Source: Balneolales bacterium | Lineage (GTDB): Bacteria; Bacteroidota; Rhodothermia; Balneolales; Cyclonatronaceae | NCBI GenBank assembly: GCA_020832405.1 | Contig: JAFIET010000010.1 | Location: 1-64,000, forward strand | Direction: 5' to 3' | DNA length: 64,000 nt | Shown: positions 24,755 through 59,930 of the stretch, one piece after another | How the letters are laid out: each line of letters opens with the position of its first letter | How positions within the stretch are numbered: the first letter of the stretch is position 1 | Notes under the pieces: generated by a model | Told to the model about the DNA's origin: nothing | The model's database searches: none | The model's input: the letters and a program-made list of their open reading frames with translations, nothing else | Position numbers and translations under genes: made by a program

Positions 24755-25882
24755 TTAGTCCAAAAACCCCCGGTAATTCTCCCGTGTAATTACCTCAAAA
24801 CTACTGTTAGGATAGGTTTCAAAAAACTCAGCCGGCTTGCGGACTTTGGCGTTGGGGTTCCATTTGAATTCGAAAGTACTCAGCCTTCCGCCGGCTTCTT
24901 CGAGATAGTCGATTTCCTTGCGGTCGTAGGTGCGCCAGAAGTAGCGATTCGGGAACTGCCGTTGGTTGTGCAGCAGCTTCATCCGCTCGGTAACACAAAA
25001 ATTCTCCCATAGTGCCCCGGTGTCATCGCGCTGCGAGAGGGGGTTGAAATTGTTGATGAGGCTGTTCCGGATGCCGTTGTCCAGAAAATACACTTTGAAG
25101 GATTTTGAAAGCTCCTTGCGCAGGTTTCGGCTGAATGAACCCAGCCGGAAAACCACAAAGCTTTTTTCCAGCAGCTCGATGTAGTTGCGGATGGTATGGT
25201 GGTTTTCACCCAGCAGCTTTGCAAGCTCGTTATAGGAAACCTCATGGCCCAGCTGAAGCGCCAGCGCCTGTAGCAGCTTAAATAACAGGTCAGACCGCTT
25301 GAGCTGATTAAACTGAAGCACATCTTTATACAGGTAGTTGGTCGAAATATCCCGAAGCTCCTCAAGGGCCTCTTCTTCGGGCTGACCGTACACATCGGGG
25401 TACATCCCGAACCGAAGCATATTTTCGAGCCTTGCATCCCAATCGACCGGCAGCGTTTCCTGAGAAATTTCGGTCAGTGAAAACGGGTAAAGCGTGAAGG
25501 TGCGGGAGCGGCCGGTCAGCGGTTCGCTCACGGACTGCGCCATGTCGAAAGAGGACGAGCCTGTGGCAATCAGCTGAATGTCCGGTCGCGTATCGGCCAG
25601 TACTTTCAGCGTGAGGCCAATGTTAGGAATGCTCTGCGCCTCGTCAAGCACAATTACTTTATAGTTGCCCAGAAAATCATTAAGCAGCGCTGTGTTGGTT
25701 GTTTCGAGCGCCTGTCGGTACTGCAAAATTTCACAGTTGATGTACCGCGCTTCATCACCAAACCCGGCAAGAAGTGCTTTGGAAAGGGTCGTTTTGCCGG
25801 TGCGGCGCGCTCCGTAAAGGATGATGACCTTCCCCTTAAACAAAAGCTTTTGGATGCTGTCCTGAATGCTGCGTCGGATCAT
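24755..25882 (-). CDS. AAA ATPase with DUF4143 domain (ATPase A)
   Basis: This 375-residue cytoplasmic ATPase has Walker A GARRTGKT (residues 24-31), Walker B VIVLDEAQ with Asp80-Glu81, and the sensor LIATGSSSFDM near 105-115. A winged-helix-like middle (EVSYNELAKLLGENHHTIRNYIELLEKSFVVF) follows, with a C-terminal domain whose strands KEIDYLEEAGG and FEFKW give the D...ExK pattern of the PD-(D/E)XK nuclease fold. This is the AAA_14/DUF4143 family, common in Bacteroidota and of unknown function. It is a tandem paralogue of ATPase B, on the same strand across a gap of about 220 nt. Two tandem 29-nt palindromic repeats lie 96-156 nt upstream. Confidence 0.9.
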   Translation of the reverse strand: MIRRSIQDSIQKLLFKGKVIILYGARRTGKTTLSKALLAGFGDEARYINCEILQYRQALETTNTALLNDFLGNYKVIVLDEAQSIPNIGLTLKVLADTRPDIQLIATGSSSFDMAQSVSEPLTGRSRTFTLYPFSLTEISQETLPVDWDARLENMLRFGMYPDVYGQPEEEALEELRDISTNYLYKDVLQFNQLKRSDLLFKLLQALALQLGHEVSYNELAKLLGENHHTIRNYIELLEKSFVVFRLGSFSRNLRKELSKSFKVYFLDNGIRNSLINNFNPLSQRDDTGALWENFCVTERMKLLHNQRQFPNRYFWRTYDRKEIDYLEEAGGRLSTFEFKWNPNAKVRKPAEFFETYPNSSFEVITRENYRGFLD

Positions 25883-25977
25883 GGCTGTGCTGCGTTATGG
25901 TAACGGTTCCGGGTATCAGTTGACCGCATCCTGCCGGGCGGAGTTAAACCTGATGCCCTATAAAGTAGGCAAAATAC

Positions 25978-26038
25978 AAATCTCGGAAGTCAACTTCCAA
26001 AATTTATATAAATCCCGGAAGTTTACTTCCGAAATTTA
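25978..26038. promoter_or_regulatory. Paired palindromic repeats upstream of ATPase A
   Basis: Two 29-nt units (25978-26006 and 26010-26038, period 32 nt) match at 25 of 29 positions. The core of unit 2 is CGGAAGT-TT-ACTTCCG; that of unit 1 is CGGAAGT-CA-ACTTCCA. Both have outer arms AAAT and ATTT. The symmetry suggests a dimeric protein binding site; the 32-nt period is close to three helical turns. No other copy was noticed in the window. Confidence 0.7.
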
Positions 26039-26102
26039 GGAAAAGGGAGGGCAGTCGCGTTATGCAGCCGCAGGGATAAACCATGCTTTCGGTTAAGGGC
26101 AA

Positions 26103-27245
26103 TCAGGCCGTGCCGGGGGTCACCCGGTCCATCATCACAAAATCTCTGAAGTTAGTCCGGTCGATGGTTTTGCTTTCTGCCTTGTAGGTGTTCGTGAAGC
26201 TTGCTGAGAGCCGTTCGCGCCCCTGCGCATCCCACTTGAACTCAAAACCGCTGATTCTGCCTCCCAGGTCCTCTACCCAGTCCACTTCCTGCTGCTGCTT
26301 GGTTCGCCAGAAATAGGTGCGGGCCAGTGACTCCTTATATGCAATTTGTTTTATGCGCTCTGAGACCAGAAAGTTTTCCCAAAGTGCCCCTTTGTCGGTT
26401 CGGGAGGCCGGCGGATCAAAGTTTCCGATAATCATGTTTCTCACCCCGTTGTCGTAGAAATAGATTTTATTGTTTTTCCTGATTTCATTGCGCAGGTTCC
26501 GGCTGAAAGCACCAAGCCGGAAAACAACATAGCCTTTTTCGAGAATTTCAATGTACCGGCTCACCGTTTTGGTGTCGAGGCCTGTCATTTGCCCAAGCTC
26601 CGCATAACTGACCTCGCTGCCAGTCTGAAAAGCAAGGGCACGCACGAGCTTGTCGAGGGCATCCGTTTTTTTGATGCCTCCGTAAATAAGCAGATCGCGG
26701 TACAGGTAGCTGTTTACAAGATTGCGCAGCACCGGAATTTCGTCGCCCGGCGACATGAGCACATCCGGATAAAACCCGTATATCAGCCTGTGCTCAAGCT
26801 GCTGTTGTGAGGCGAGGTACCCGTGCTGCTGCTCGAATTCTTCCCAGGAAACCGGAAAGAGCTGATACTCCCACTTGCGGCCGGTAAGGGGCTCGTTAAG
26901 CTGATTTGCAAGATCAAAAGAGGATGAACCGCTCGCAAACAGCTGAACCTGTTTGAACTGATCCGTGATGATTTTCATGGTCTGACCGATGTCGGGTATT
27001 CGCTGCGCTTCATCAATAAAAACCCGGCTGTATGTTCCGAGGATGGAGCGAATCCGCCCTGTATCCGCTCCGCCTAACATTTCCCGTGTTGAGGGGTCGT
27101 CACCGTTGAGAAAAAGAAAAGGCGTACCGCGAAGAATGGTCGTCATAAGCGTTGTTTTGCCGACCTGTCGGGGCCCCGTAACAATGATTGCCTTGCCGGA
27201 ACCAATCCGTTTCTCGATGGAAGCCTGCAGGGTGCGTTTGTACAT
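26103..27245 (-). CDS. AAA ATPase with DUF4143 domain (ATPase B)
   Basis: This 380-residue paralogue of ATPase A has Walker A GPRQVGKT (24-31), Walker B VFIDEAQRIPD with Asp78-Glu79, and the sensor LFASGSSSFDLA. A winged-helix segment (EVSYAELGQMTGLDTKTVSRYIEILEKGYVVF) follows, and the C-terminal nuclease-like block is QQQEVDWVEDLGG followed by FEFKW. The catalytic-looking Glu/Asp...Glu-x-Lys pattern is kept. It is transcribed toward ATPase A with no coupling. Its own upstream repeats (27303-27371) differ completely in sequence from those of A. A DNA- or chromosome-related role is only inferred from the domain structure. Confidence 0.9.
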   Translation of the reverse strand: MYKRTLQASIEKRIGSGKAIIVTGPRQVGKTTLMTTILRGTPFLFLNGDDPSTREMLGGADTGRIRSILGTYSRVFIDEAQRIPDIGQTMKIITDQFKQVQLFASGSSSFDLANQLNEPLTGRKWEYQLFPVSWEEFEQQHGYLASQQQLEHRLIYGFYPDVLMSPGDEIPVLRNLVNSYLYRDLLIYGGIKKTDALDKLVRALAFQTGSEVSYAELGQMTGLDTKTVSRYIEILEKGYVVFRLGAFSRNLRNEIRKNNKIYFYDNGVRNMIIGNFDPPASRTDKGALWENFLVSERIKQIAYKESLARTYFWRTKQQQEVDWVEDLGGRISGFEFKWDAQGRERLSASFTNTYKAESKTIDRTNFRDFVMMDRVTPGTA

Positions 27246-27302
27246 GGCGGAGGGGTTTAGGGGAAAAGTCAGGAGCTTGTTTACCGGTAAAGATAATCAA
27301 AA

Positions 27303-27371
27303 CATAACCATTCCGGAATCAAATCCATTTTGGTCATAACCATTCGGGATTTCATTCCGGAATGGTCATAA
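27303..27371. promoter_or_regulatory. Paired palindromic repeats upstream of ATPase B
   Basis: Two adjacent 32-nt units start at 27303 and 27335. Both begin CATAACCATTC and end TTTGGT or AATGGT, and are followed by a third CATAA. Within them are the palindromes ATTCCGGAAT and CATTCCGGAATG, and the long-range pair ACCATTC / GAATGGT. The block begins 58 nt before the ATPase B start. Confidence 0.65.
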
Positions 27372-27531
27372 ACGCAGGCTTTCCGGAAGTGAAGGCTTCC
27401 GTGACTCAGCTCAAAAATCCCGCCTCCGGACACGCACAAATCCTGCCTTTCGGGCTTCCCGAAAAAGGGTTCAAAAAAGTATATTGGCACAGCACTACTC
27501 GCTGCAATCTCAAATTTTCCGAATCCGCTTT

Positions 27532-28938
27532 ATGAAAACAAGTCTGGCCGTTTTTCTGCTGATTTTACTGACGGGATGTCGGGAGGCCGCGTCTCAGACC
27601 GTGTCCGGCATCCTCACGGAGCATGCCGGTCAGGAGGTGCGCCTCGAGGGCTTTCGCGGCTTCGATACCCGGCTAATCAGCAGCGGCAGGGTTTCTGACA
27701 GCGGGGAATTCTCGCTTTCGTATGCCGGCGAGCAGCCGGGCATGGCGCTGCTTTCGGCGGGCGGCGGCAGCCCGTTTGTGGTTGTACTTTCGGGTGAAGA
27801 CATCCGGCTCGAAGGGGCGTCGCCGGCCATGCCCGAAACCATGCGGGTGGTGGAGGGCACCGAAAACCGGCTGTTTGAGCAGTACGCCTCGGAGCATCCG
27901 CGGCGCGAGCAGGCCCTCAGCGCCTGGATTTACCTGCGCACCCTTTATGATGCCGATTCGCTCTTCGCCGCGCATCAGCTACCCCGCGAGGCCATTGCAG
28001 CCGAAATCGCGCGCATCCGCGCAGAAGATGAAGCCTTCCTCTCGGCGCTTGATCCCGACACCTACATCAGCTGGTATCTGCCGGTCCGGCGGCTTGTGAG
28101 CGCGGTGCCGGTTGTGGCGCAGTTCCGCACGGAGGAAATCCCGGCAACCATCGAAGCCTTCCGGCAGCTCGACCATACCGAACCGCGCCTGTACCGCAGC
28201 GGTCTCCTCGCCGATGTGCTGGAAAGCCACGTGTGGCTGATCGAAAACAGCGGGCGTGATCTCGATGCGGTCTTTGAGGCGCTGAACCGCTCCGCCGATA
28301 TCCTCACCGAAAACCTCTCAGCCGATCCCGTGCGCTTCCGGGAGCTCACCGCATTCCTGTTTGAGCTGCTTGAAAGGCGGAGCCTGTTTGCCTCATCAGA
28401 GCATCTTGCGCGCCGGCTGCTCACGCAGTACCCGGAGCTGCCTGACCGGAACCTGCGCGCAAAGCTGGAAATCTACGGCGCCATGCGCATCGGCAACACC
28501 GCTCCCGAACTTGTTTTCGGTCCGCTCACGCACCGACCCGATGGTCTGTCAGCGGAAAGCCTGAGCGGGGTGGATGCTGATTTCGTGCTGGTCGTCTTCG
28601 CCGCAGGTTGGTGCGCCGCCTGCCGGGAGATGCTGCCCGAACTGCGGACAAGGTACCAAAGCTGGCGTGAACAGGGGGTGGAAGTTGTGCTGGTAAGTCT
28701 GGATGATGCGCCCGAAGCCTTTGAAGCCTTCACCGCCGGGCTGCCCTTTCCGGCCACCACCGACCTGAAAGGCTGGGAAAGCGCCGCCGCCCTCGACTGG
28801 CACGTGCACAGCCTGCCCGCCTTCTGGCTGCTGGACCGCGACCGCAGGATTATCCTGCGCCCCAACTCCGTAAGGCACGCCCATGCCTGGGTTGACTGGC
28901 ACCTCATACAGGGCAACCCCATCCCCTCCCCGCGCTGA
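27532..28938 (+). CDS. Thioredoxin-like (TlpA/ResA-type) lipoprotein
   Basis: This 468-residue envelope protein has a lipoprotein signal (MKTSLAVFLLILLTGC). The N-terminal part resembles the DUF4369-like beta domain common in Bacteroidota (VSGILTEHAGQEVRLEGF), followed by a long helical middle and a C-terminal thioredoxin fold with active-site CAAC (Cys361, Cys364) in GWCAACREM. The cis-Pro region is SLPAFWLLD. Such proteins act as thiol-disulfide reductants in the periplasm, often for cytochrome or outer-membrane protein maturation; the partner is unknown here. The start was chosen at the signal peptide; an upstream in-frame initiator would add 16 residues. Confidence 0.87.
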   Translation: MKTSLAVFLLILLTGCREAASQTVSGILTEHAGQEVRLEGFRGFDTRLISSGRVSDSGEFSLSYAGEQPGMALLSAGGGSPFVVVLSGEDIRLEGASPAMPETMRVVEGTENRLFEQYASEHPRREQALSAWIYLRTLYDADSLFAAHQLPREAIAAEIARIRAEDEAFLSALDPDTYISWYLPVRRLVSAVPVVAQFRTEEIPATIEAFRQLDHTEPRLYRSGLLADVLESHVWLIENSGRDLDAVFEALNRSADILTENLSADPVRFRELTAFLFELLERRSLFASSEHLARRLLTQYPELPDRNLRAKLEIYGAMRIGNTAPELVFGPLTHRPDGLSAESLSGVDADFVLVVFAAGWCAACREMLPELRTRYQSWREQGVEVVLVSLDDAPEAFEAFTAGLPFPATTDLKGWESAAALDWHVHSLPAFWLLDRDRRIILRPNSVRHAHAWVDWHLIQGNPIPSPR

Positions 28939-28949
28939 TCTCCCGGTTG

Positions 28950-29265
28950 ATGGCACGCGGATTGAGCGGATCGGGCCGGATTTCCGCGGATTTTTTGGGG
29001 GGTTGATGCACCGAACCCCGCCCCCATGTCATTTCGAACGCTTATCAGGTGGAAGGAACTCTCCGAAGCATCCGGGAGGGGAGAAGCAGGAAAATGACCG
29101 AAGCGTAATGTGAGAAATCCCCAAAGCCAGCCCCCCACCCTTCGCGGTCTTCGCGCATCCCTTCGTGACCTTCGCGGTTAAATTCCGGCAGCTGATTTTC
29201 ACCGCGAAGGCCGCTAAGGATGTCGCGAAGTCCGCAAATAGTAGGGTGCCGGATGGCCCGCGGAA
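28950..29265 (+). repeat. R1 intergenic repeat, forward copy (c5), interrupted by R2
   Basis: It starts GATGGCACGCGGATTGAGCG, GATCGGGCCGGATTTCCGCG. It is split by an R2 element at about 29027-29122, then resumes with CCTTCGCGGTCTTCGCG, GACCTTCGCGGTTAAA, CGGCAGCTGATTTTCACCGC and GAAGGCCGC. It ends immediately before ATPase C (stop side). Confidence 0.87.
29027..29122 (+). repeat. R2 repeat nested in R1
   Basis: It begins TGTCATTTCGAACGC, contains CCGAAGCATCCGGG and ends TGTGAGAAATCCCC. This is the TCATYTCGAACG ... GTGAGARATCYCC family, also present at 58.3-58.6 and 60.0-60.6 kb. R1 copy c6 lacks this insert, so R2 seems to have arrived inside c5. Confidence 0.75.
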
Positions 29266-29295
29266 CGGGTCAGATTTCAGTTACCCCGTACGCTT

Positions 29296-30489
29296 CTAAT
29301 ACAAAAAACCAAACAGCCAAAGCGGGATGCGGTTGCCATATCCGGTTTCGATGCCGTCGATGGCGAGCCATGCGTTTTCTTCACCTGAAATCTGTGCGGC
29401 GGTCTTGTTTTTGCCGCCCACTTCAAGGAGCAGGCTGCGATCAATGAGGAAGTCGCCACGATCAGGCTCGTGCACGGTGTGGATCGGAGCAAGCTGACTA
29501 AGCAGGAATGATTCGCGCTGCGTGCCGGGGTTCACCTCACCCGGATTAAGGCTGTGCATGATATTGGGATGGCTCAGGTAAACTTTTTCCGGCTTGGTAA
29601 GCAGGCTGATCCCTTTTTTCGCACTAAACAGGGATCGTGTGAGCCCCGCCAAATCAAGATAGCGGAAATAAGCCTTCAGGTTGTTTTTGCCTGTCTGCAT
29701 GCGTTCCGCAAGTTTGTCGATGTTAGGTTTAAAAGGCACACTATGGCTGATGATGTGCAAGAGCTGTTTTACCTTTTCCATACTTGCCGGGCTGATCCCG
29801 GTAGTGAGCAGTAAATCGGACTCGATAACCCGGACAACCGTTTCCCGAAGGCGCAAATCGTAAGTTTGCGGGTTCTCGAAATAATAGGGGTAGTAGCCCC
29901 CGCGCAGGTAATCCTCAAAATGCTGAAGCGGCCTGATTTCCTGCCAGATCGTTTTTGCAATCTGCTGATGGTCGCTCAGAATGGAACTTAGCGGAATAAC
30001 ATCGAAAGTCTTTCCCGTAGCAAACTGAATATACTCGCGAAAGGAAAGCCCCGGAAGGTCGTAAATCACGGCCCGCCTCGAAAGCTCACCAAGGCCCTCA
30101 CTCAGCTGAAGCATGGATGAACCGGTAAACAAAACATGAAGCCCGGGATAGCGGTCATAAATGTTCTTCATTTCACGGGCCCAGCCACTGTAGCTGTGCA
30201 CTTCATCGATGAGAAGGTACTCGCCGCCCCGTTTCACAAATGCATCTGCAAAATCGGCAAGTCCCTGCTGCGCAAAAGCAATATCATCCAGACTGACATA
30301 TATTTTTTTCTTGTCCTGAAGCTTCATCCGGGCAAACTGAAGCAACAGCGTCGATTTGCCGACTCCCCGGGCACCCTTGATTCCAATCATGCGTCCGCCC
30401 TCAGAAAGCTGAGCCAGCTGATTTCTTACAACCGCTTCCGGCGCATGTGAGATGAGCCGTTCAGAAATTTCGAATAAATAATCCATCAT
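29296..30489 (-). CDS. AAA ATPase with DUF4143-type C-terminus (ATPase C)
   Basis: This 397-residue ATPase has Walker A GARGVGKS (39-46), Walker B LLIDEVHSYSGW with Asp95-Glu96, and the sensor VLFTGSSMLQLS. Its helical middle includes SVPFKPNIDKLAERMQ and GKNNLKAYFRYLDLAGL. The C-terminal nuclease-like block is GDFLIDRSLLLEVGGKNK, in which the usual E-x-K is spread as LEVGGK. The last 30 residues deviate from the other three ATPases. The gene lies between two direct R1 copies (c5 and c6) and has its own palindromic repeats touching the start codon. Two start codons are adjacent (30489 and 30486). Confidence 0.87.
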   Translation of the reverse strand: MMDYLFEISERLISHAPEAVVRNQLAQLSEGGRMIGIKGARGVGKSTLLLQFARMKLQDKKKIYVSLDDIAFAQQGLADFADAFVKRGGEYLLIDEVHSYSGWAREMKNIYDRYPGLHVLFTGSSMLQLSEGLGELSRRAVIYDLPGLSFREYIQFATGKTFDVIPLSSILSDHQQIAKTIWQEIRPLQHFEDYLRGGYYPYYFENPQTYDLRLRETVVRVIESDLLLTTGISPASMEKVKQLLHIISHSVPFKPNIDKLAERMQTGKNNLKAYFRYLDLAGLTRSLFSAKKGISLLTKPEKVYLSHPNIMHSLNPGEVNPGTQRESFLLSQLAPIHTVHEPDRGDFLIDRSLLLEVGGKNKTAAQISGEENAWLAIDGIETGYGNRIPLWLFGFLY

Positions 30490-30492
30490 AAT

Positions 30493-30547
30493 ATCGGTCT
30501 GTGTTCAGACCGAATTTACTTGTAAATCGGTTCACGTCCAAACCGAT
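30493..30547. promoter_or_regulatory. Paired palindromes at the start of ATPase C
   Basis: Palindrome 1 is TCGGTCTG-TGTT-CAGACCGA (30494-30513, perfect 8-nt arms). Palindrome 2 is ATCGGTT-8 nt-AACCGAT (30526-30547). Centre-to-centre distance is 33 nt. The first lies only 4 nt from the ATG, so a bound protein or an RNA hairpin there would block translation. Confidence 0.7.
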
Positions 30548-30562
30548 ATCTGATGTGCGCCT

Positions 30563-30772
30563 AATGGCACGCGGATTGTGCGGATCGGGCCGGATTTGCG
30601 CGGATTTTTTTGATAATGGGGTGATGAGGATGAGGCCCAATCCCCCCTTCGCGGTCTTCGTGCAACCCTTCGCGCCCTTCGCGGTAAATAAACGGCAGCT
30701 GATTTTCACCGCGAAGGCCGCAAAGGGTGTCGCAAAGTTCGCAAAGGTCACGGTGTGGCGGATGGTACACGG
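30563..30772 (+). repeat. R1 intergenic repeat, forward copy (c6)
   Basis: ATGGCACGCGGATTGTGCGG, ATCGGGCCGGATTTGCGCGG, ATTTTTTTG, then CCTTCGCGGTCTTCGTG, CCCTTCGCGCCCTTCGCGG, CGGCAGCTGATTTTCACCGC and GAAGGCCGCAAAGG. It is close to c4 and c5 and in the same orientation, with no R2 insert. Confidence 0.88.
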
Positions 30773-30824
30773 AGGCGGTAAAAAACCGGCGCTTAATCCA
30801 TGGCTCTCAACGCATCCTTCACCC

Positions 30825-31865
30825 CTAAAAAATCTCGATATCGCCTATGCTGAAACGGTTGCTTTCGGGGGTGGCCTGTTTGGGCTGCCAGGTGCGCACG
30901 TGTATCAGGGGTTCTTCTTCGCTTCGGAAATCGATCAGCAGGAAGAGGTAGCCCACATCGGAGTAGGTTTGGGAGTTGTAGTACTGCACCAGCGACACGC
31001 CGTACATGTGCGGCTGCTGCGGGTGCCGGAAGATGTCGATGTCCTCAAAGCCCACATCAATCCAGGCGTTTCGGGCGAACACCCCGCGCAGGCGGCTCAG
31101 GTATTCTTCCTTATTGAAGCGCAGGAATTCAACCTTCTCCTGCTGCTCATATTCGGAGCTTTTGCCGGTGCTCTCCACAACCCGACCCACGATAATCAGG
31201 GCTTCATCGCTGAACACCTGTTCGATGAAAGCGATGTCTTTCTGATTGAAGGCCGTGCGGAAAATTTCGAGAAAGCTGATGATCATCATCCTGTTTTCGT
31301 GATCGACCGCGCTGTCGGCGGCACGGATGAGCGCCTGATAGCGGTGTGCGGGAAGCGCGAGCCGGAGGCCGGATACGCTGCCGTCGGCGCTGAACTCCAG
31401 CACGCCCTCCTCAAAATGCTCATCGCCTGACTGATCCCGCATCATCAGCGGGATGTTGCGCATCTCCCAGCTGCCGTCGCTGCGGCGGGCGAGCTGCTCG
31501 ATGATGATGTCGTCATCCACATAAAACCGACTCACGCTCCACAGGCGGCCGAAGCCGACCGCGTCGAAGGCCGCGTGGGTTTCCCGCCCGAAATTCGGAC
31601 GGCGCTGCAGGCCGAAAGAGCGGTTGATTTCCGTGAGAAAAGCCGTAGCATTGCGTTCAATCAGTCCGCCAAAACTGCTGTCCGAAAAATCGGCAACGTT
31701 CACCAGCACCTCCGCCGGCGGGTCAGATGGTTCACCGGAGGCACCAAGGGCCTGTATAATGGGCACTAAGCTCATCACCCCCGCTATCAAAACGAAAAAC
31801 AGCCGGCGGAAAGACGCCAGGTGTAATGGAAAATGTCGTTGCAGTAATAGATATGAAGAATTCAT
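30825..31865 (-). CDS. Secreted protein of unknown function
   Basis: This 346-residue protein has an N-terminal hydrophobic segment (RRLFFVLIAGVMSLVPIIQALGA) that acts as a signal peptide or anchor. The mature part is mixed alpha/beta. Its C-terminal half, with FLEIFRTAFNQKDIAFIEQVFSDEALIIVGRVV and the late strands YGVSLVQYYNSQTYSDVGYLFLLIDF, has the look of an NTF2/SnoaL-like cone fold; that is a visual inference. I do not recognise the family. It lies 59 nt downstream of the following larger secreted protein on the same strand and is very likely in the same operon. Confidence 0.7.
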   Translation of the reverse strand: MNSSYLLLQRHFPLHLASFRRLFFVLIAGVMSLVPIIQALGASGEPSDPPAEVLVNVADFSDSSFGGLIERNATAFLTEINRSFGLQRRPNFGRETHAAFDAVGFGRLWSVSRFYVDDDIIIEQLARRSDGSWEMRNIPLMMRDQSGDEHFEEGVLEFSADGSVSGLRLALPAHRYQALIRAADSAVDHENRMMIISFLEIFRTAFNQKDIAFIEQVFSDEALIIVGRVVESTGKSSEYEQQEKVEFLRFNKEEYLSRLRGVFARNAWIDVGFEDIDIFRHPQQPHMYGVSLVQYYNSQTYSDVGYLFLLIDFRSEEEPLIHVRTWQPKQATPESNRFSIGDIEIF

Positions 31866-31907
31866 GTTGCCGGAAAAAAAGGGAAAAATAAAAATCGTTA
31901 GTTTGGA

Positions 31908-31928
31908 CCGCTAACCGCTAACCGCTAT
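31908..31928. repeat. CCGCTAA tandem triplicate
   Basis: CCGCTAA, CCGCTAA and CCGCTAT lie in a row. The last unit contains the stop codon of the gene at 31925, so slippage here would change only the end of that frame. Confidence 0.7.
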
Positions 31929-33607: not shown

Positions 33608-33809
33608 ATCTGCGACTAAGCTTGTGATGCGGTGCTAAAAAGAAGCCGCGGCCTGTTTTGGTATTCAGCTGAAGGCCCGGAAACCCATCACCCGAAAAAA
33701 AGATACCAAAATTTGAAAAAAGCGCCTCGGCGGGTAAAAAATATGATACGGAATTAGCGCTGAAGCCGCAAAGAGATACGTCCTGTTTTGTCCCGAAAGC
33801 CGGGCAGGC

Positions 33810-50545: not shown

Positions 50546-50588
50546 ACCGGAGCAGCCCCGGGCAGCATCCATCGGAAAAAAACTGTCA

Positions 50589-50633
50589 GCGTCCGGTCGT
50601 GCAGATTTTCACACGGCCGGGCGCGCTTTTTTT
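50589..50633 (+). terminator. Terminator-like hairpin
   Basis: GCGTCCGGTCGTG and CACGGCCGGGCGC pair imperfectly and are followed by seven T. It lies 44 nt after the M13 peptidase stop. Confidence 0.7.
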
Positions 50634-50691
50634 GTAGGGGGATGTGTTTCCGGGCGGCACCGCTTCCTCATCTCAAAAAAACACCGCAGCA

Positions 50692-51219
50692 ATGAAAAAA
50701 TCCGATGAATCCGTACCCGCTGACCCGCTCATCATCCGGCTTCACAGCCGCGACCGGCACCGGATTGAACTGCTCGCCATCCTGCCGTCGCAGCAGCAGA
50801 ATCTAAATCCGGATACGACGGAAATGCGGAAAAGGGTGGAAGCACATCACCCTTTACCCCAGCCGGAATTTTCCGAAGACAGCGGCACGGCAACGATTCG
50901 GTGGTCGGCCAAAAAACTGCTGAAACGAAGTGGCGGCAGCTATCAGCTGCGGGAAACCGACGCGCTGCTGCGCCTGCAGCTCGAAAACCGGCTCTGGAGT
51001 CTTGTGGCCGCGCCGGGTTGGCTGTGCCTGGGCGGTGCAGCCGTTTATGCCTGGAAAATGCTCGATCAGCAGGAGCCGGCCGGGTTGTTCGCGGTGATTA
51101 TTCTGGCTGCTTTTGCCCTTCTGTTTTTTAATCAGCGCGACAAAGCGCAGGGCAAAGCCGTGGAAGAGCTGCGCCGGCAGATGCTCGCGCTCTGCGGGGA
51201 AAATCCGGAAAAGAGCTGA
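50692..51219 (+). CDS. Hypothetical two-helix membrane protein
   Basis: This 175-residue protein has a soluble N-terminal half with a basic core (TIRWSAKKLLKRS), a middle helix, two hydrophobic segments (LVAAPGWLCLGGAAVYAW and LFAVIILAAFALLFF) and a short charged tail. The family is not recognised. ATG at 50692 was preferred over the earlier start at 50644 because the latter adds 16 residues lacking any structure. It sits between a terminator and the beta-helix lipoprotein; no operon partner. Confidence 0.62.
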   Translation: MKKSDESVPADPLIIRLHSRDRHRIELLAILPSQQQNLNPDTTEMRKRVEAHHPLPQPEFSEDSGTATIRWSAKKLLKRSGGSYQLRETDALLRLQLENRLWSLVAAPGWLCLGGAAVYAWKMLDQQEPAGLFAVIILAAFALLFFNQRDKAQGKAVEELRRQMLALCGENPEKS

Positions 51220-51447
51220 GGCCCCGCCGTTCTGAATCAGCCTGAAACATCACAGAAGCGTTTGTTAACCTGCACTTAATACCATGGCGTTATATTAAAA
51301 CCATGTTAATATGAAACTTGTGGGTTTACCATGTCTTTCGACTGTAACATTCCCATAATACTCGGCCTGGTGTAAATAACACTAAGGTAACAGCAGAGCG
51401 ATAATCTTTGGGTGTATTCTTTTACCCAAAACCAATTTCACTTTGCT

Positions 51448-52911: not shown

Positions 52912-52933
52912 CCGAAAACTGTCTTCAGAAAAA

Positions 52934-52963
52934 AGACCTGTCCGAAACCCTTTCGGGCAGGTC
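52934..52963 (+). terminator. Hairpin terminator
   Basis: AGACCTG-T-CCGAAA and TTTCGG-G-CAGGTCT form a stem of about 14 pairs with one mismatch, followed by a T-rich stretch. It lies between the beta-helix gene and the next lipoprotein and could attenuate rather than stop transcription of the TonB locus. Confidence 0.8.
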
Positions 52964-52994
52964 TGTTCTGTTTCTCCTACATCCACCGCCGAGT

Positions 52995-53615
52995 ATGTTC
53001 AGATTTTCATCCTTCCTGCTGATTTCCCTCTTCGCTTTTCTTGCAGTGTCCTGCTCCGAAAAGCCCGAAGATGCCGGTGCTTACCGCGCTTCCCTTCAGC
53101 TTGATGAAGCCAGCGCGCAGGCGCTGATGACCTCCGGAATCCGCTATGCCGGCCGCCTTCCCGCCGGGGCCACGATACAGACCCGTTACGAAGCCCGCTT
53201 CGATGCCGACTACGCCGAAACAGCCGCGGAACACCGCATCGACTATTTCTACCGCAGCCCCGATGACCGCGTTTTCATGGTCATCAGCCGGGATGCCCGC
53301 AGCCTGCACAGCCGCAGGCTTGCTACCGGCATAGAGCTGATACCCGGCGACAGCCTTTCCGCCCGCCCGCTCGCCTATGCTGAACACTTCCGCACCTGGG
53401 CCATGGCACCTGATGAGCTCGACCGCAAAGCCGGTGAACTCTTCCTCCTCATGAAAGCCGGTGCCGACCTCAGCCCCTTCTACCCGGAAAACTCCGGCGA
53501 TGAAGAATACATCGAGTTTCCGAACGCAGAAGTGCTTTTCGATACGCAGACCCGCAGCTGGGTCCGTGACGAACCGCATCCCCTCGATACCCTTCGGGAA
53601 CTCCGAAATCAGTAA
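52995..53615 (+). CDS. Lipoprotein of unknown function preceding the TonB receptor
   Basis: This 206-residue lipoprotein has a signal core FSSFLLISLFAFLA and lipobox AVSC with Cys20. The mature domain is acidic, alpha/beta, with strands FDADYAETAAEHRIDYFY and VFMVISRDARSLHSRRL. Family not recognised. It lies 57 nt before the TonB-dependent receptor on the same strand and downstream of the beta-helix lipoprotein, so it likely belongs to the same surface uptake or assembly locus. Nothing more can be said. Confidence 0.75.
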   Translation: MFRFSSFLLISLFAFLAVSCSEKPEDAGAYRASLQLDEASAQALMTSGIRYAGRLPAGATIQTRYEARFDADYAETAAEHRIDYFYRSPDDRVFMVISRDARSLHSRRLATGIELIPGDSLSARPLAYAEHFRTWAMAPDELDRKAGELFLLMKAGADLSPFYPENSGDEEYIEFPNAEVLFDTQTRSWVRDEPHPLDTLRELRNQ

Positions 53616-53672
53616 TAAACCCGCTTACCCGGCAAACGCACACCTTATTTATATTCAAGAACCAAAACTGGT

Positions 53673-56531
53673 ATGAAATCAAGCTATACAGGCGCATTAT
53701 TGAGGATTACCCTGCTCACGATTGTTTTTTTTGCAGGAGGATGGGGCATCACGGCCGTAAACCAGGCTGCTGCGCAGCTGCAGTCGCAGACCGGCACGCT
53801 CAGCGGGCTGGTGTTTGATGAAGACAGCAGCGAAAGCATCATCGGGGCAGCGGTGAGGCTGGAAGGAACCCTGCTCGGCGCCGCTACCGATATCGACGGC
53901 CGCTACATCATCCGGAACATTCCGGCGGGCACCTACACGGTCATTTTTTCCTACGTGGGCTACACGGATCTGCGCTTCACCGATGTTGTCATTGAGCCGA
54001 ACGGCCGCCATGAGCTCAACGCCCTGCTTTCTGCATCAACGCTCGATCTCGATGCGGTAACGGTTTCTGCTACCCGGCAGCGCGACAGCGATGTCTCCGT
54101 AATCAGCGATATCCGGAGGAGCTCGCAGGTGCTTTCCGGGGTTTCTGCCCAGCAGATTGCCCGCTCTCAGGATGGCAACGCGGCACAGGTGATGCAGCGG
54201 GTGCCCGGCGTAACCCTGGTTGACAGCCGCTTCGTGATGATCCGCGGGCTGAGTGAGCGCTACAACAACGTGCTCATCAACAACACCCTCGCGCCCAGCA
54301 CCGAGGTGGACAAGCGTACTTTTTCCTTCGACCTCATTTCAAGCGGCTCGCTCGACCGCATGCTCATTTCGAAGTCCGGCTCGGCGGAGCTGCCCGGCGA
54401 TTTTGCCGGCGGCGTAATCAAACTCTTCACCGTTGAGCAGCGGGATGAAAACTTCACAAGCTTCAGCATTGGCAGCGGCTACCGTGTTGGCACTACCGGG
54501 CGCAGCTACATGCAGAGCCGCGGTTCCCGCACCGATTTCCTGGGCTTCGACAGCGGCTTCCGGGCGCTGCCCGGCGACTTCCCCGATTCCCGCAGCCTGC
54601 AGAACAGCGCGCGAAACGCACAGCTGCGTCAGGATGCCGCCCTCATGCTCGAAAACAACTTCCTGCCCGAAAGCACAACCGCGCTGGCCGATCACAGCCT
54701 GGGCCTGGCCTTTGGCCGCAACTGGCAGGCCGGCAGCCGCCGGTGGAGCAACATCACCACGCTCGACTACAGCACGGGCTATCAGCGCTACGACCGCTCC
54801 TTCTTCCGCTACCTCGAGTGGGAAAACCGGAATCAGCCCATCCTGCAGCGCTTCGCCTTTAACGACGAAACTTTCCAGAAGGAAACCCGCCTCAGCCTGA
54901 TGTCCAACTTCAACCTGCGCCTCAACCCTTCACACAGCATCAGCTTCAAAAACCTGTTCAATCAGATCGGCGAGAACGAAACCATCATGAGAAACGGCAC
55001 CGACTTCATTCAGCGGCCCGATGATGAGCTCATGAATTACCTGCTCGGCTACCGCTCCCGCTCTATTTACACGGGTCAGCTCGAGGGCAATCACCGCCTG
55101 AGCGAAAACCAAAACCTCAACTGGACGCTCGGCCTCAGCTACCTCGGCGAGTCAGAGCCGGACCTCCGCCGCTTCCGCACCTTCCGCGACATTAATGATG
55201 CCGACGAGCGCTTCACCATGCAGATGCCGCCCTCATCCAACCTTTTTGATACGGGCCGCTACTTTGGCAGCCTCGATGAAATTTCCGTCAATCAGGGCGT
55301 CAACTACGAATACCGGCCGGCGCGCGGACCGGAGTTTATCCGCGGCGGCTACCTGATCGATTACCGCAACCGCGATTTCAGCTCCCGCTACATCTCCTAT
55401 CTGTACCCCGGCTTCTTCAACCCGAATGTGCGGGAAGAGCTGATACGCCTGCCCCTCGATGAGATTTTCGCCCCGGAAAACATCCGCACCCTCGACGGCT
55501 TCGTGATTGAGGAAGGCACCCGGCCCATCGACAGCTACGGCGCGGAAAGCCTCACCCTTGCCGGGTACCTGAGCACGGAGTTCGTGCTCAGCCGCATGCA
55601 GCTTTCCGGCGGACTCCGTGTTGAGCACAATACCCAACAGCTCAACAGTCAGGACGACTTCCAGGATATCCGGGTTAAAAATCCGGTGCTTTCCCTGCTG
55701 CCCTTCCTTTCGGCATCGCTCACCCTCACCGAGCGCACGCAGCTCCGCGCCGGCTACAGCCGCACCGTAAACCGCCCCGAATTCCGCGAGCTCGCGCCCT
55801 TTGTGTTCTACGATTACAAGATGGATGCGGGCCGTGCCGGAAATCCGAACCTCAAAACCGCCCAAATCGACAATGCCGACCTCCGCTATGAGTTCTACCC
55901 GCGGCTCGGGGAGCTGATTTCCGTCGGGGTATTCTTCAAATACTTCAACAACCCGATCGAAAACCGTACTATCGTAACGACCGAGAGTCCGCAGTTCAGC
56001 TATATAAACGCGGACTACGCCATGAGCTACGGCGCCGAAATCGAGTTCCGCAAATCCATGCTCGGTCTCACCAACAGCGCCTTCATAGACCGCTTCTCTG
56101 TGAACGCAAACGCCTCCGTGATCTTCTCGGAAGTGAATCTCGGCGAAACGGCCGTTGCCCAGAGTCAGACCCGCGCCCTTCAGGGGCAGTCGCCCTACAT
56201 TGTAAACATGGCGCTGTACTACGACGATCAGCAGCGCGGCATTCAGGCAAGCGCCGTGTACAACATCGTGGGTCCCCGGATTTTTTCAGTGGGTGATGTG
56301 CTCTTCCCGACCATCTACGAAATGCCCCGAAACAGCCTCGATCTGTCGGCTTCCTACCGCTTTGGGCGCGGTTCGCAGCTCAAAGCGGGCATCAGCGACC
56401 TGCTGAACGCCCCGTACCGCTTCTACCAGGATTCCGACCGAAACGACCGCCCCGAAACCGGCCGCGATCACGAAATCTTCAGCTACAGCCGCGGTCAGAA
56501 AATCAGCCTCAGCTACAGCTATCGGTTCTGA
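53673..56531 (+). CDS. TonB-dependent outer-membrane receptor
   Basis: This 952-residue receptor has a signal peptide and an N-terminal carboxypeptidase-like regulatory beta-sandwich (LSGLVFDEDSSESIIGAAVR, then IDGRYIIRNIPAGTYTVIFSYVGY). The plug domain follows, with the block AAQVMQRVPGVTLVDSRFVMIRGL, and then a beta-barrel ending in the aromatic strand SLSYSYRF, whose terminal Phe is typical for Bam recognition. No SusD partner is seen, so it is not a standard SusCD pair. The substrate is unknown; two upstream lipoproteins are likely accessories. A strong terminator follows. Confidence 0.94.
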   Translation: MKSSYTGALLRITLLTIVFFAGGWGITAVNQAAAQLQSQTGTLSGLVFDEDSSESIIGAAVRLEGTLLGAATDIDGRYIIRNIPAGTYTVIFSYVGYTDLRFTDVVIEPNGRHELNALLSASTLDLDAVTVSATRQRDSDVSVISDIRRSSQVLSGVSAQQIARSQDGNAAQVMQRVPGVTLVDSRFVMIRGLSERYNNVLINNTLAPSTEVDKRTFSFDLISSGSLDRMLISKSGSAELPGDFAGGVIKLFTVEQRDENFTSFSIGSGYRVGTTGRSYMQSRGSRTDFLGFDSGFRALPGDFPDSRSLQNSARNAQLRQDAALMLENNFLPESTTALADHSLGLAFGRNWQAGSRRWSNITTLDYSTGYQRYDRSFFRYLEWENRNQPILQRFAFNDETFQKETRLSLMSNFNLRLNPSHSISFKNLFNQIGENETIMRNGTDFIQRPDDELMNYLLGYRSRSIYTGQLEGNHRLSENQNLNWTLGLSYLGESEPDLRRFRTFRDINDADERFTMQMPPSSNLFDTGRYFGSLDEISVNQGVNYEYRPARGPEFIRGGYLIDYRNRDFSSRYISYLYPGFFNPNVREELIRLPLDEIFAPENIRTLDGFVIEEGTRPIDSYGAESLTLAGYLSTEFVLSRMQLSGGLRVEHNTQQLNSQDDFQDIRVKNPVLSLLPFLSASLTLTERTQLRAGYSRTVNRPEFRELAPFVFYDYKMDAGRAGNPNLKTAQIDNADLRYEFYPRLGELISVGVFFKYFNNPIENRTIVTTESPQFSYINADYAMSYGAEIEFRKSMLGLTNSAFIDRFSVNANASVIFSEVNLGETAVAQSQTRALQGQSPYIVNMALYYDDQQRGIQASAVYNIVGPRIFSVGDVLFPTIYEMPRNSLDLSASYRFGRGSQLKAGISDLLNAPYRFYQDSDRNDRPETGRDHEIFSYSRGQKISLSYSYRF

Positions 56532-56573
56532 GGCAGGGAAATCCGGGGGATACGCCCGGTACCGTTCATCACA

Positions 56574-56610
56574 AAAAAAGCCGCGCAGACCAGTTTCTGC
56601 GCGGCTTTTT
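56574..56610 (+). terminator. Rho-independent terminator of the TonB receptor
   Basis: AAAAAGCCGCGCAGA and TCTGCGCGGCTTTTT form perfect arms with a 6-nt loop. It ends the TonB locus. Confidence 0.93.
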
Positions 56611-56772
56611 GCATGAAGGTCCGGGCAAGACCCGGGGGCAGGGCGTGCAGGAAAACCAGAGAAGCAGCCGGACGAAAACTTGTGCTGCGCTGCATCAAGT
56701 TGTCCGTAAGTCCGTATCTTGCGCGGGTTAACACTTTTTTTTAATTTCCTTACACTCACGAACAAGCCAGTC

Positions 56773-57693
56773 ATGTCAGAACGCTTTTTTTCAGAAGACG
56801 AAGTTGCCAAAGTCATCCGCCGTGCCGCTGAGCTCGAGGCCGAGCGGGCGAAGCAATCAAAAGGGAAGCCGCAGGCAGGGCTGAGCGTGCAGGAGCTGGA
56901 AGAAATCGCGAGTGCTTCAGGCATTGATCCGGAGCTCATCCGGCAGGCCGCAAACGAGCTCGATACGGAACCGTCGCAGTCGCCGGCCGGGCGGTCGCGG
57001 TCAACCCGCTCAGAAACTTCGGCCGTTGTAATTGACGACAGCGAGATCTATGCCGAAGAATGGATTGATGTAAAACCGGCCGACGGCCTCATCGACCTGC
57101 TCATAGCTGAGCTCAACCATAAGTACGGCACCTCTGAAGACGACGTAACCTGGTGGAACAACCTCACCGGCGATTACCCCGGCAAGGCCCGTGTGAAGCG
57201 CAGCAGCCACACAACCGAGTGGATTTACACCGATGCCTGGCAGATGTCGACTACGCGGGTATTGTTTCAGGGGCGGGGCGACCGGCTGCGCATCCGCGTG
57301 AGCAAGCGCGACACCTACGGCGGCAACTGGGAAAACTACGGCAATTACGCCTGGCTCATCGCTGCCGTACTTATGATTCCGACGGGTATTTTGGGCCATT
57401 TTGCCATGGAATCCGCCATAGCAACTGCGCTTATAATGGCGGCCGTTTTTGCGCTCAGCTTCGGAGCGGGCCGTACCTACCTCACGGGCCTTGTGGGAAA
57501 GGAAGAGAAAAAAATGGACCGGCTTTCGGCGGAACTGGGTGATCTGGCCCGTGAGCTCGGTCCCGATTTTCAGAAGTCGGGCAGCACTTCGGCTTCACAA
57601 AGCCGCCGCACCATCAAAATTGACGGCGCGGAAGCCGACCTCAGCGACTCGGTCGCACAGAAAGCGCAAAAGCTCCGCAATCAGCTCCGCTGA
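56773..57693 (+). CDS. Hypothetical membrane protein with acidic N-terminal region
   Basis: This 306-residue protein begins with a charged helical segment (FFSEDEVAKVIRRAAELEAERAKQ, then LSVQELEEIASASGIDPELIRQAANEL), which resembles a small helical adaptor. A soluble alpha/beta domain follows. Two hydrophobic segments lie near 195-240 (NYAWLIAAVLMIPTGILGHF, AMESAIATALIMAAVFALSFG), and the C-terminal tail is charged. Family unrecognised, though the N-terminal pattern is often seen in Bacteroidota membrane proteins of unknown role. The start codon follows a GTTAACAC-rich stretch; ATG at 56773 is favoured. Confidence 0.68.
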   Translation: MSERFFSEDEVAKVIRRAAELEAERAKQSKGKPQAGLSVQELEEIASASGIDPELIRQAANELDTEPSQSPAGRSRSTRSETSAVVIDDSEIYAEEWIDVKPADGLIDLLIAELNHKYGTSEDDVTWWNNLTGDYPGKARVKRSSHTTEWIYTDAWQMSTTRVLFQGRGDRLRIRVSKRDTYGGNWENYGNYAWLIAAVLMIPTGILGHFAMESAIATALIMAAVFALSFGAGRTYLTGLVGKEEKKMDRLSAELGDLARELGPDFQKSGSTSASQSRRTIKIDGAEADLSDSVAQKAQKLRNQLR

Positions 57694-57710
57694 GCCGGAA
57701 CCGGCCCGGC

Positions 57711-57977
57711 CTAATCCAGATACTTGTCGAAATACTCCTCTACCCAGCCCTTCAGGGTAGATTCCGGCACCGGCAGGAAAAAGCTCTTTTTTAGGTCAAC
57801 CGTGATTTCATCACCCGAATCAGCGATATAGCCCGAAACCAAATTGCCGTTAAAACGCAGGGTATCGCCCTCCCATTTATGGCCGATACCAAACTTCTTC
57901 TGCATATCGCCCGCAATAATGCCGAGCGCCTCGCGCACTTCTTCCTTGCTTTTGCTGTGCTTTCGTGTGAGTTTCAT
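57711..57977 (-). CDS. Polyhydroxyalkanoic-acid-system family small protein
   Basis: This 88-residue protein matches the small family found with PHA granule systems: a basic N-terminus and EEVREALGIIAGDMQKKFGIGHKWEGDTLRFNG, with strands NLVSGYIADSGDEITVDLKKSFFLPV followed by the helix WVEEYFDKYL. The fold resembles a one-domain START-like strand-helix arrangement. It need not imply PHA synthesis; no phaC gene is in view. It is convergent with the gene at 57693, separated by 17 nt. Confidence 0.72.
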   Translation of the reverse strand: MKLTRKHSKSKEEVREALGIIAGDMQKKFGIGHKWEGDTLRFNGNLVSGYIADSGDEITVDLKKSFFLPVPESTLKGWVEEYFDKYLD

Positions 57978-58125
57978 GCTCTGTCCTGCTCCGTATTGAG
58001 GTGAGGGGTAAGTGTATAAGCCGGACTATATAAACAACAAAAAAACGGAAATCAACCAGGCAGCATACCAGAATCCGGCATCTGTCATTTTTCCGCCCCG
58101 TTTTTTTAGGGTGAAATTTTGAGAA

Positions 58126-58186
58126 CATCACTGTCTTTCGTGCTTGTGACAAATCCCAAATCAACGGCATGTCCCGTGCCTTTTTT
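58126..58186 (-). repeat. R3 repeat, inverted copy left of ATPase D
   Basis: CATCACTGTCTTTCGTGCTT, then GTGACAAATCCCAAATCAAC and GGCATGTCCCGTGCC followed by T-run. This is the near-perfect reverse complement of the R3 copy at 60.33 kb: only one substitution and one 1-nt indel were visible over about 54 nt. Confidence 0.9.
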
Positions 58187-58285
58187 TTTGAGGTCCCTTC
58201 CTGATCTTAGCCCGCAGACCATGTAGCAGCTCTAAGTTACCTGATGTGCACAGTCCTGAACCCCCAAAAAAACAAATCAAACAAA

Positions 58286-58575
58286 TGTCATCTCGAACAG
58301 CGGCGTATGGCAATGAGCCTGCCAAAGTCTGTGCAAGCAGCACAGTCGCGAAACCATTCGAAGCATCATGTGAGAGATCTCCAAAGGTGGCCTGCCCGGC
58401 ACTTTCTGAGCGCCCCGAAAAAAGCCTGCGTGCTGGCCCGCCATCCGCCGCCCCGTGGCGTATTCATGTGAAGGAGATTCCTCACATGATGCTTCGGCAG
58501 CCAATCGGGCGGGTCCGGCCCAAAGCCTTCGGCAAGCTCCCTGCCACACGAGCAGCGTTCGGAATGACACGGGGG
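58286..58575 (+). repeat. R2 composite repeat left of ATPase D
   Basis: It begins GTCATCTCGAACAGCGGCGT, ATGGCAATGAG and CGAAACCATTCGAAGCATCA, TGTGAGAGATCTCC. The second half begins GGAGATTCCTCACATGATGC and ends GCAGCGTTCGGAATGACACG, the inverted form of the same element. The pair is thus head-to-head. A matching direct copy occurs on the other side of the ATPase at 60032-60244. Confidence 0.85.
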
Positions 58576-58641
58576 AGGGTGTCGGGAGTGGGTATGGGGT
58601 TAGGGCAATGCCCTAATGTGGCACCAAGTTTGAAAAAAGAC

Positions 58642-59847
58642 TCAGCTGAAATACTCCCGGCAGGGAACAGCGATCGCCGTGAGGCCATCCTGCTCAAACC
58701 GGTCGTGCTGATTAAGTGTGATGATGTGCCCTTCCTGCAATCCAAAAAAGCGGAGGGCTTCAAAAAGGCCGTTCAGCTCCCTTTCAAGATTATCAGCCGT
58801 CAGTTTCAGGCAAACCTGTATTACCTCAGCGGGCCTGCTTTTTTCGACCGCGATAAAATCGCACTCACCCTTTTCTTTGAAATAGCAGATCTCCCTGTAT
58901 CTGCGTCTCAGAAACAGAAAAACAAGATTTTCAAACACCGGACCCCAATCAGAAGTGAACGACTTTGAATTGACCTGCACGAGTCCGGTATCGATCGCAT
59001 AAACCTTTCTTGGGTTCACGTTCTGCTTTTGTACCGAATAGCTGAATTTGGGCACAAAGAAGAATAGCCAGGACTGCTCCAAGTGCGAGAAATACTCCAT
59101 TACCGTACTTGTGGCACTGATACCGATCTGCGACTTGAGCTTGTTTGCGCTAACCAGTCTGCCTGTGTTGGATACAAGAAAAAGCGCAAGCCGCTGCAGC
59201 GATTTCACATCCCGAACGCCGTAGCGTACGGCGATATCCCGTATCAGAATGTCGTTAAACAGCTGATGCAGCACATCGTCGTTTCCGCTTTTGAGATACT
59301 CCGGAAAGCCGCCCTCGTTCATGTAATTCTGAAACAGCGCATCGGATGGCTGCAGCCCTCTTAACCGCAAAAACTCCGGCCACGAAAAGGGGAACAGTTC
59401 GGTGCTCAGATGCCTGCCGGTCAGCCGTGAGCCCAACTCCTGACTCAGCAGGGAGGCGTTCGATCCCGTAATGATCAGCCTGCAGCCTTCGTCGAGCTTC
59501 TGCCGCACGTACAACTCCCAGCCTTCCACAACCTGAATTTCATCAAAGAAGAGCAGCTTTTTCTCTGATTCATGCAGGATGTCATCGAGCCGCGCAAAAT
59601 CCCTGAGGTCGAAGCCGTACAGGCGCGGGTCTTCAAAGTTCAGAAAAAATGCATCCGCATAGTCCCCGTGCAGCAGCTGATGCATGAGCGTACTTTTCCC
59701 GCAGCGGCGTATGCCCGAGATGATAAGCGCATGCGCATCAGGTTCGGGCAGCCGGTGCATGGCATCGCGCATGAGCCCCGTTTCCCTGCCGCGCAAATTA
59801 TCCCGCTGCGCCCGCGCAACATCCGCAATGGTAGTTTTGGTAATCAT
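58642..59847 (-). CDS. AAA ATPase with DUF4143 domain (ATPase D)
   Basis: This 401-residue ATPase has Walker A GIRRCGKS (45-52), Walker B LLFFDEIQVVEGWE with Asp102-Glu103, the sensor LIITGSNASLLS and the helical arm LTGRHLSTELFPFSWPEF. A winged-helix-like part (VSANKLKSQIGISATSTVMEYFSHLE) follows, and the C-terminal nuclease-like block is GECDFIAVEKSRPAEVIQVC. The last motif has E-x-I-Q rather than E-x-K, so the catalytic Lys is replaced by Gln. The gene is enclosed by direct R2 composites and inverted R3 copies, and has its own palindromic pair upstream. Confidence 0.9.
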   Translation of the reverse strand: MITKTTIADVARAQRDNLRGRETGLMRDAMHRLPEPDAHALIISGIRRCGKSTLMHQLLHGDYADAFFLNFEDPRLYGFDLRDFARLDDILHESEKKLLFFDEIQVVEGWELYVRQKLDEGCRLIITGSNASLLSQELGSRLTGRHLSTELFPFSWPEFLRLRGLQPSDALFQNYMNEGGFPEYLKSGNDDVLHQLFNDILIRDIAVRYGVRDVKSLQRLALFLVSNTGRLVSANKLKSQIGISATSTVMEYFSHLEQSWLFFFVPKFSYSVQKQNVNPRKVYAIDTGLVQVNSKSFTSDWGPVFENLVFLFLRRRYREICYFKEKGECDFIAVEKSRPAEVIQVCLKLTADNLERELNGLFEALRFFGLQEGHIITLNQHDRFEQDGLTAIAVPCREYFS

Positions 59848-59874
59848 ATTTTTCTCTGGTTTGACGCAAAGCTA

Positions 59875-59930
59875 CAAATTTGTTGTTTAGCAACAAACAA
59901 TAGTGTTGTTTGGCACCAAACAAAAATATG
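59875..59930. promoter_or_regulatory. Paired palindromes upstream of ATPase D
   Basis: The first palindrome is TTTGTTG-TTTAG-CAACAAA. The second is TTGTTTGG-CA-CCAAACAA. Both share TGTTGTTT starting at 59881 and 59904 (23 nt apart), roughly 30 nt before the ATG. They match each other, but not the palindromes of ATPases A, B or C. Confidence 0.7.

Follow-up and report, generated by a model that had tools for sequence, protein, structure and literature searches.

Private paired palindromes upstream of AAA_14 ATPase genes in a Balneolales genome as probable operators of the ATPases that these genes encode

The present study concerns four AAA_14 ATPase genes, here called A to D, and the paired palindromes that precede them in a Balneolales bacterium. 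The window, i.e., the whole stretch of DNA analysed, comprises 64,000 nucleotides (nt) of contig JAFIET010000010.1, and all coordinates are window positions (Table 1). The four genes lie on the minus strand and encode proteins of 375 to 401 amino acids (aa). AAA_14 (PF13173) scores above the Pfam cut-off in each of them (each >27 bits), and DUF4143 (PF13635) does so in A, B, and D. The original prediction, which had classed all four as AAA/DUF4143 proteins, is therefore right for three of them, whereas C has no listed DUF4143 match and passes Pfam for AAA_14 only. L016, a paralogue within the C family, has a DUF4143 score of 32.8 bits. The PADLOC profiles of PDC-S01 match all four proteins (A, 4e-151; C, 2.5e-24; the others, 6e-108 or better). 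DUF4143 matches number 16 in the host genome and 3 to 14 in five other genomes of the genus, these per-genome counts being drawn from a sampled set.

By these matches, the closest known system is PDC-S01, which consists of AAA_14 plus DUF4143 ATPases and is a candidate phage defence. PDC-S01 ATPase domains are described as fused to members of the PD-(D/E)XK group, and the system is reported to rank fourth in frequency among prokaryotic defences, with 39,480 instances (bacterial and archaeal counts added) and with experimental validation pending (PMC12988326). An AlphaFold2 (AF2) model of B, with a mean predicted local distance difference test (pLDDT) score of 91, places a winged helix at about residues 194 to 263 and its recognition helix at residues 225 to 237. 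The best fold matches of this model were archaeal SSO1545 (2fna) and PABY2304 (2qen), at a template modelling (TM) score of about 0.5, followed by Apaf-1 and other AAA+/STAND proteins, with the ATPase next to a winged helix. Apaf-1 and MalT matched at low TM, MalT at rank 20, and all four named proteins are distant (11-14% identity). A PDB search with the sequence of B alone found no close relative, and a profile search of the same database gave only partial matches to AAA proteins of the p97/Cdc48 type.

Table 1. ATPase genes, putative operator units, and associated motifs of the window
Feature	Position	Strand	Remarks
Gene A	24755..25882	-	AAA_14 ATPase - winged helix - PD-(D/E)XK (DUF4143), 375 aa; PADLOC PDC-S01; Pfam AAA_14 3e-28, DUF4143 1e-40; PDLC04789 4e-151
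A recognition-helix residues NHH, aligned to B 224-226	25196..25204	-	Protein alignment
Putative operator unit 2 of A, TGGAAGTTGACTTCCG (coding strand)	25984..25999	-	Paired-palindrome scan
Putative operator unit 1 of A, CGGAAGTAAACTTCCG	26016..26031	-	32 bp from unit 2
Gene B	26103..27245	-	AAA_14 ATPase - winged helix - PD-(D/E)XK (DUF4143), 380 aa; AF2 model pLDDT 91
B PD-(D/E)XK motif, E320-x-D322 ... E335-x-K337	26232..26288	-	63 relatives
B recognition-helix start DTKTV (residues 224-228)	26562..26576	-	AF2 model and covariation; 224-226 are the operator-covarying positions
Putative operator unit 2 of B, ATGGATTTGATTCCGG	27313..27328	-	Fit from DNA alone
Putative operator unit 1 of B, CCGGAATGAAATCCCG	27345..27360	-	32 bp from unit 2; ACCATTC/GAATGGT arms overlap
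Gene C	29296..30489	-	AAA_14 ATPase with winged helix; no DUF4143 match at the Pfam cut-off; C-terminal D...E(V)GGK motif
C recognition helix GKNNLKAYF	29665..29691	-	C-family tally
Putative operator unit 2 of C, ATTCGGTCTGAACACAGACCGATA	30492..30515	-	Paired-palindrome scan
Putative operator unit 1 of C, TATCGGTTTGGACGTGAACCGATT	30525..30548	-	33 bp from unit 2
Gene D	58642..59847	-	AAA_14 ATPase - winged helix - DUF4143; degenerate nuclease motif GECDFI...IQVC
D promoter -7 box TAGCTTTG	59867..59874	-	Second D palindrome directly upstream, in the -33/-7 interval
Putative operator unit 2 of D, TATTGTTTGTTGCTAAACAACA	59881..59902	-	Paired-palindrome scan
Putative operator unit 1 of D, TTTTGTTTGGTGCCAAACAACA	59904..59925	-	23 bp from unit 2

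Two similar palindromes had been predicted upstream of every one of these genes; their coordinates and their spacings of 32, 32, 33, and 23 bp were confirmed, and the palindromes score above chance. The score used looks for a pair of inverted repeats that share one geometry and whose four half-sites are alike, and it is expressed as z against dinucleotide shuffles of the same sequence; a first score with free spacers and 7-bp arms had been dropped as noisy. The z values were 6.5 for A, 5.2 for B (best lag there, 44), 8.1 for C, and 6.8 for D. Among 52 AAA_14/DUF4143 genes of the genus and family, the mean z was 5.1 and 73% exceeded 3, as against a mean of 0.5 and 2% above 3 in 129 control promoters of the same genome, so that the comparison with ordinary promoters came out as the original prediction had it. 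The G+C content was 0.45 in the controls and 0.38 in the family regions, with z computed against each region's own shuffles. The best lags of the 52 genes were 32/33 bp in 19, 22/23 in 8, 53/54 in 5, and 64 in 2, whereas those of the control promoters were scattered. Since these lags lie near whole turns of DNA, they point to a protein bound on one face of the helix. In more than 100 further genes, mostly from Bacteroidota, lag 32 was again the peak. The C family has lags of 32/33; in the D family, the lag is 23 among the closest relatives of D and 32 in a group that is farther removed but belongs to the same phylum.

The putative operator unit of the A/B subfamily, fitted from DNA alone, consists of five bases, an AT-rich 6-bp centre (consensus WTATAW), and the five bases of the opposite arm, with a period of 32 or 33 bp. 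A first fit chose A-rich artefacts and, for some genes, the outer dyad; it was replaced by a GC-weighted, inner-arm-weighted fit before any protein comparison. This fit exceeded the 95th percentile of shuffles in 84% of the A/B genes, the calls for weak genes being uncertain. The 5-bp half-sites are private to each gene (GGTGA, GGTCA, GGGGA, TTCGG, CGGAA, TGCGG, and others). Accordingly, the earlier statement that the sequences are unrelated between genes stands for the half-sites but not for the centre, which is common within the A/B subfamily. Orthologues keep the motif and paralogues differ, as had been expected if each protein has an operator of its own.

TAnnTTTG is the consensus of the -7 element of Bacteroidota promoters. 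In 50 of 71 genes, as compared with 8 of 71 after shuffling, this element fell within the span of the operator, and its TTTG often overlaps a half-site or sits 17-22 nt downstream of the second centre. Within 200 nt upstream of A, B, or C, an exact TAnnTTTG was not found. The position of the units bears on the sign of regulation. An ATPase might activate its own gene, or turn from activator to repressor with occupancy as restriction-modification C proteins do, and the two unequal sites, some of them well upstream of the promoter in a C-box-like layout, would suit such a scheme, as would the presence of MalT among the distant fold matches. However, the half-site of many genes overlaps the TTTG of the -7 element or fills the gap between -33 and -7, where a bound protein should block RNA polymerase, and we regard activation as decidedly unlikely.

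In the A/B subfamily, the half-site follows the winged helix of the protein encoded downstream. Across about 370 alignment columns, with overall identity removed, the best predictor of half-site similarity was residue 226 in B numbering (r 0.335), and residues 225 and 224 were also among the top six. A rule was fixed before testing: N226 gives T at base 3, K gives G, and E gives C; D224 gives G at base 4, and N or S at 224 gives a base other than G. The held-out set comprised 32 confident genes fetched after the rule had been set, all <90% identical to the training genes and still relatives of them. The rule was correct for base 3 in 15 of 17 genes and for base 4 in 29 of 32, whereas shuffled pairings averaged 6.0 and 16.1, respectively; in 20,000 shuffles, values as high as those observed never occurred (p 5e-5 each, which is the floor). 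Over all 103 genes, residue 226 paired with base 3 as N with T (44/48), K/H with G (15/17), E/D with C (10/10), and I with T (9/9), and D at residue 224 paired with G at base 4 in 55 of 62. Column 226 carried 0.98 bits of mutual information with base 3, as compared with 0.31 for the next column. Of the five half-site bases, the code accounts for two or three.

The same dependence appears in edge-disjoint pairs compared on a tree from which the winged-helix columns had been left out. Bases at position 3 differed in 20 of 26 pairs with different residues at 226 and in 7 of 39 with the same residue (p 2.6e-6); the corresponding values were p 2.7e-4 for residue 225 and base 2, and p 0.005 for residue 224 and base 4. 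For B, which belonged to the training set, the residues DTK predict G3 and G4, and its half-sites CCGGA/CGGGA agree. The C family appears to show a similar coupling of helix and half-site: in a small tally made post hoc, [NTHP]RN goes with TGC (7/7), RA/RV/RE/RT with TGT (7/8), RD with TGA (2/2), and G(K/R)N, which includes gene C, with YGGT (4/4). The original prediction had proposed a test of whether the repeats covary with the C-terminal or the winged-helix part of the protein; residues 224-226 bear out the latter, so that the covariation points to the winged helix and not to the nuclease-like domain. As for selection for insulation, no two A/B proteins of one genome have the same residues 224-226 (0 of 36 pairs), where only 1.7 such pairs are expected, a difference that is not significant.

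Because the half-site follows the recognition helix of the same protein in held-out genes and in tree contrasts, each ATPase probably reads its private operator. These data also bear on two other explanations. If the palindromes were operators of other, unlinked transcription factors, their position over promoters would suit any repressor, but the half-site would have no reason to track the ATPase's own recognition helix, as it does in the held-out genes and the independent contrasts. Furthermore, the A operator CGGAAGTnnACTTCC has two exact sites in the 3.96-Mb genome, both upstream of A, and the C operator likewise has two, both upstream of C, its other matches occurring at the frequency of a reversed control; sites for A and C are thus found nowhere else above chance. 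We give hardly any credence to unlinked factors. The repeats could also act in RNA, as hairpins or attenuators of the 5′ untranslated region or through self-processing by the nuclease domain, and for some palindromes (C, L008) the start codon is indeed no more than 60 nt away. However, the spacings are near multiples of the helical turn of DNA, the units lie upstream of or across the -7 boxes, the arms are short, and the 6-nt centres are AT-rich. Besides, the bases follow DNA-reading residues with the usual side-chain preferences (K/H with G, D/E with C), which leaves an RNA role the least probable of the alternatives considered here.

The nuclease-like domain offers a further test. Among 63 relatives of A and B, E320, E335, and K337 are invariant and D322 nearly so. 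The D ... E-x-K signature is present in A and B, takes the form E-x-G-G-K in C, and is lost in D (Q-x-C/S). Nearly every member of the C family (L309-L338) has D-F ... E-(I/V)-G-G-K instead of E-x-K, and its displaced lysine might still be catalytic. In the D family (L279-L308), the motif is uniformly altered to CDF or VDF ... QV/QA followed by C, S, A, V, or T, which suggests a family-wide loss or change of catalysis, and the operators are kept. Because the operators persist where the nuclease E and K are gone, they do not depend on nuclease chemistry, which favours regulation over cutting as the explanation of the sites. The near-invariance of the motif in the A/B relatives and the occurrence of members on plasmids and on a few unannotated phage-collection contigs would fit sites of cleavage or capture by the PD-(D/E)XK domain in a selfish or site-directed nuclease cycle. 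Nevertheless, A and C sites are missing elsewhere in the genome, and cutting of one's own promoter is hard to square with stable inheritance. Together with the D family, these points make the cleavage explanation very improbable. Site-specific cleavage, conceived of in the original prediction, is therefore not supported; nor has its selfish module been borne out, the literature going only as far as a candidate defence family that is not validated (PMC12988326).

Taken together, the control promoters, the conservation among orthologues, and the covariation with the winged helix support the proposal that each protein recognises its own operator. We put at roughly 0.85 the probability that each AAA_14 ATPase is a sequence-specific DNA-binding protein that has its own promoter as private target and shuts off its own gene. 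Within this reading, the ATPases almost certainly bind the operators of their own genes, and autorepression is the best inference from where the sites lie. Several points weigh against it. All of its support comes from sequence, and the sign of regulation is deduced from the position of the sites only. About 16% of the A/B genes do not reach the 95th percentile of shuffles. The half-sites of B are weaker than those of A, and an overlapping second pair of arms leaves its register uncertain. A few confident genes, e.g., L236 and L263, break the rule, and the formal test of the code is confined to the A/B subfamily. Furthermore, the layout is often missing beyond Bacteroidota and close phyla; specifically, none of six alphaproteobacterial plasmid copies reaches z 3.

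Beyond Bacteroidota, Treponema, a KSB1 genome, and a phage-collection contig have the layout; one of two Thermus copies is borderline, and Moraxella has a single dyad. The plasmid copies of Azotobacter, Nitrosomonas, Desulfosarcina, and Acinetobacter gave nothing at z 3 or above. Universality of the layout was therefore rejected, most of the proteobacterial plasmid copies tested being without it. Five subfamilies (L059, L001, L002, L012, and L020) have a long single dyad instead of or in addition to the pair, usually centred about 20-25 nt from the start; it exceeds z 3 in 52-67% of their genes, as compared with 1.6% of controls. L020, L023, L028, and L037 have arrays of several palindromes, TTTTCACGGTA...TACCGTGAAAA, with a period of 53-54 bp over about 200 bp, which may have a further role.

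A plausible mechanism for autorepression would start from a dimer whose two winged helices read the two half-sites of one palindrome. Two or more such dimers would sit on the same face of the DNA, two or three helical turns apart (five or six in some relatives), possibly as cooperative pairs or a tetramer. Placed over or beside the -7/-33 elements, they would shut off transcription of their own gene. Specificity would be set by the first residues of the recognition helix, and the paralogues of one genome could therefore diverge to orthogonal operators. An ATP-dependent signal, e.g., infection or DNA damage, might then release the ATPase and derepress the gene. A bolder and rather unlikely extension is that the ATPase-nuclease is held inactive as an ordered, helically phased assembly on its own promoter until infection, e.g., by way of invading DNA or a nucleotide change, sets it free; this release would relieve the repression of the gene and at the same time arm the nuclease. 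If this were true, paralogue-specific operators would let a genome keep many independent sentinels, as with the 16 DUF4143 matches of the host, and the control logic of one of the commonest candidate defence families would be at hand.

Autorepression from private paired dyads is a known type of control, found with C proteins and antitoxins. Restriction-modification C proteins and their C-boxes resemble the present system in having a single autoregulator per locus, private paired palindromes over its own promoter, and paralogue-specific sequences. However, C proteins are small, stand-alone helix-turn-helix proteins linked to a restriction-modification operon, whereas the present proteins are AAA_14 ATPases of the length given above, in which the reader would be a winged helix within an AAA+ ATPase of about 380 aa that also has a PD-(D/E)XK-like domain. 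Toxin-antitoxin autorepression is alike in self-limiting expression from private tandem dyads. In contrast, no antitoxin gene was noticed next to any of the four window genes, and the DNA-binding and putative effector domains are combined in one ATPase.

In the open literature, with preprints and most subscription papers outside the scope of the search, DUF4143, PF13635, COG1373, and PDC-S01 yielded no description of an operator, of DNA specificity, or of autoregulation. As far as can be told, private paired-dyad autorepression with a readable code would thus be new for the AAA_14/DUF4143 ATPase family. Mycobacterial IniR resembles these proteins in its predicted SSO1545-like ATPase domain and its function as a DNA-binding regulator (PMC5760070). 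In contrast, the operon that it activates is not its own, it combines a MalT-like domain with a separate DNA-binding domain at the C-terminus, and the accessible part of that report describes no private self-operator. On the present evidence, the Bacteroidota members of PDC-S01 would be sequence-specific DNA-binding autoregulators. The partial amino-acid-to-base code allows a new member's target to be predicted from the sequence of that member, and the family becomes directly testable by gel shifts and reporters. The orthogonal operator-repressor pairs, of which there is a large natural set, could also supply regulatory parts.

A few minor observations were made on the surroundings of these genes. 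In three genomes of the genus, a conserved gene whose protein starts approximately with HPLMxxPGWxE lies downstream of a GGTGA-type ATPase (L007, L018, and L022). In a Rhizobium beringeri plasmid record (L343), the annotation has one gene for the ATPase part and an adjacent one for the DUF4143 part, probably a frameshifted copy. Two dispersed elements occur in the window. The first, with core GCGGATCGGGCCGGATTT, lies at 28966-28983, 30580-30597, and 19601-19618, two of the copies flanking gene C closely, one on each side; the genome holds 36 matches at two or fewer mismatches, and the reversed control none. The second, AGCATCATGTGAGAGATCTCC, lies at 58362-58382, 60107-60127, and 58473-58493, with copies on both sides of gene D; it has 15 genome matches at the same threshold, again with none for the reversed control.

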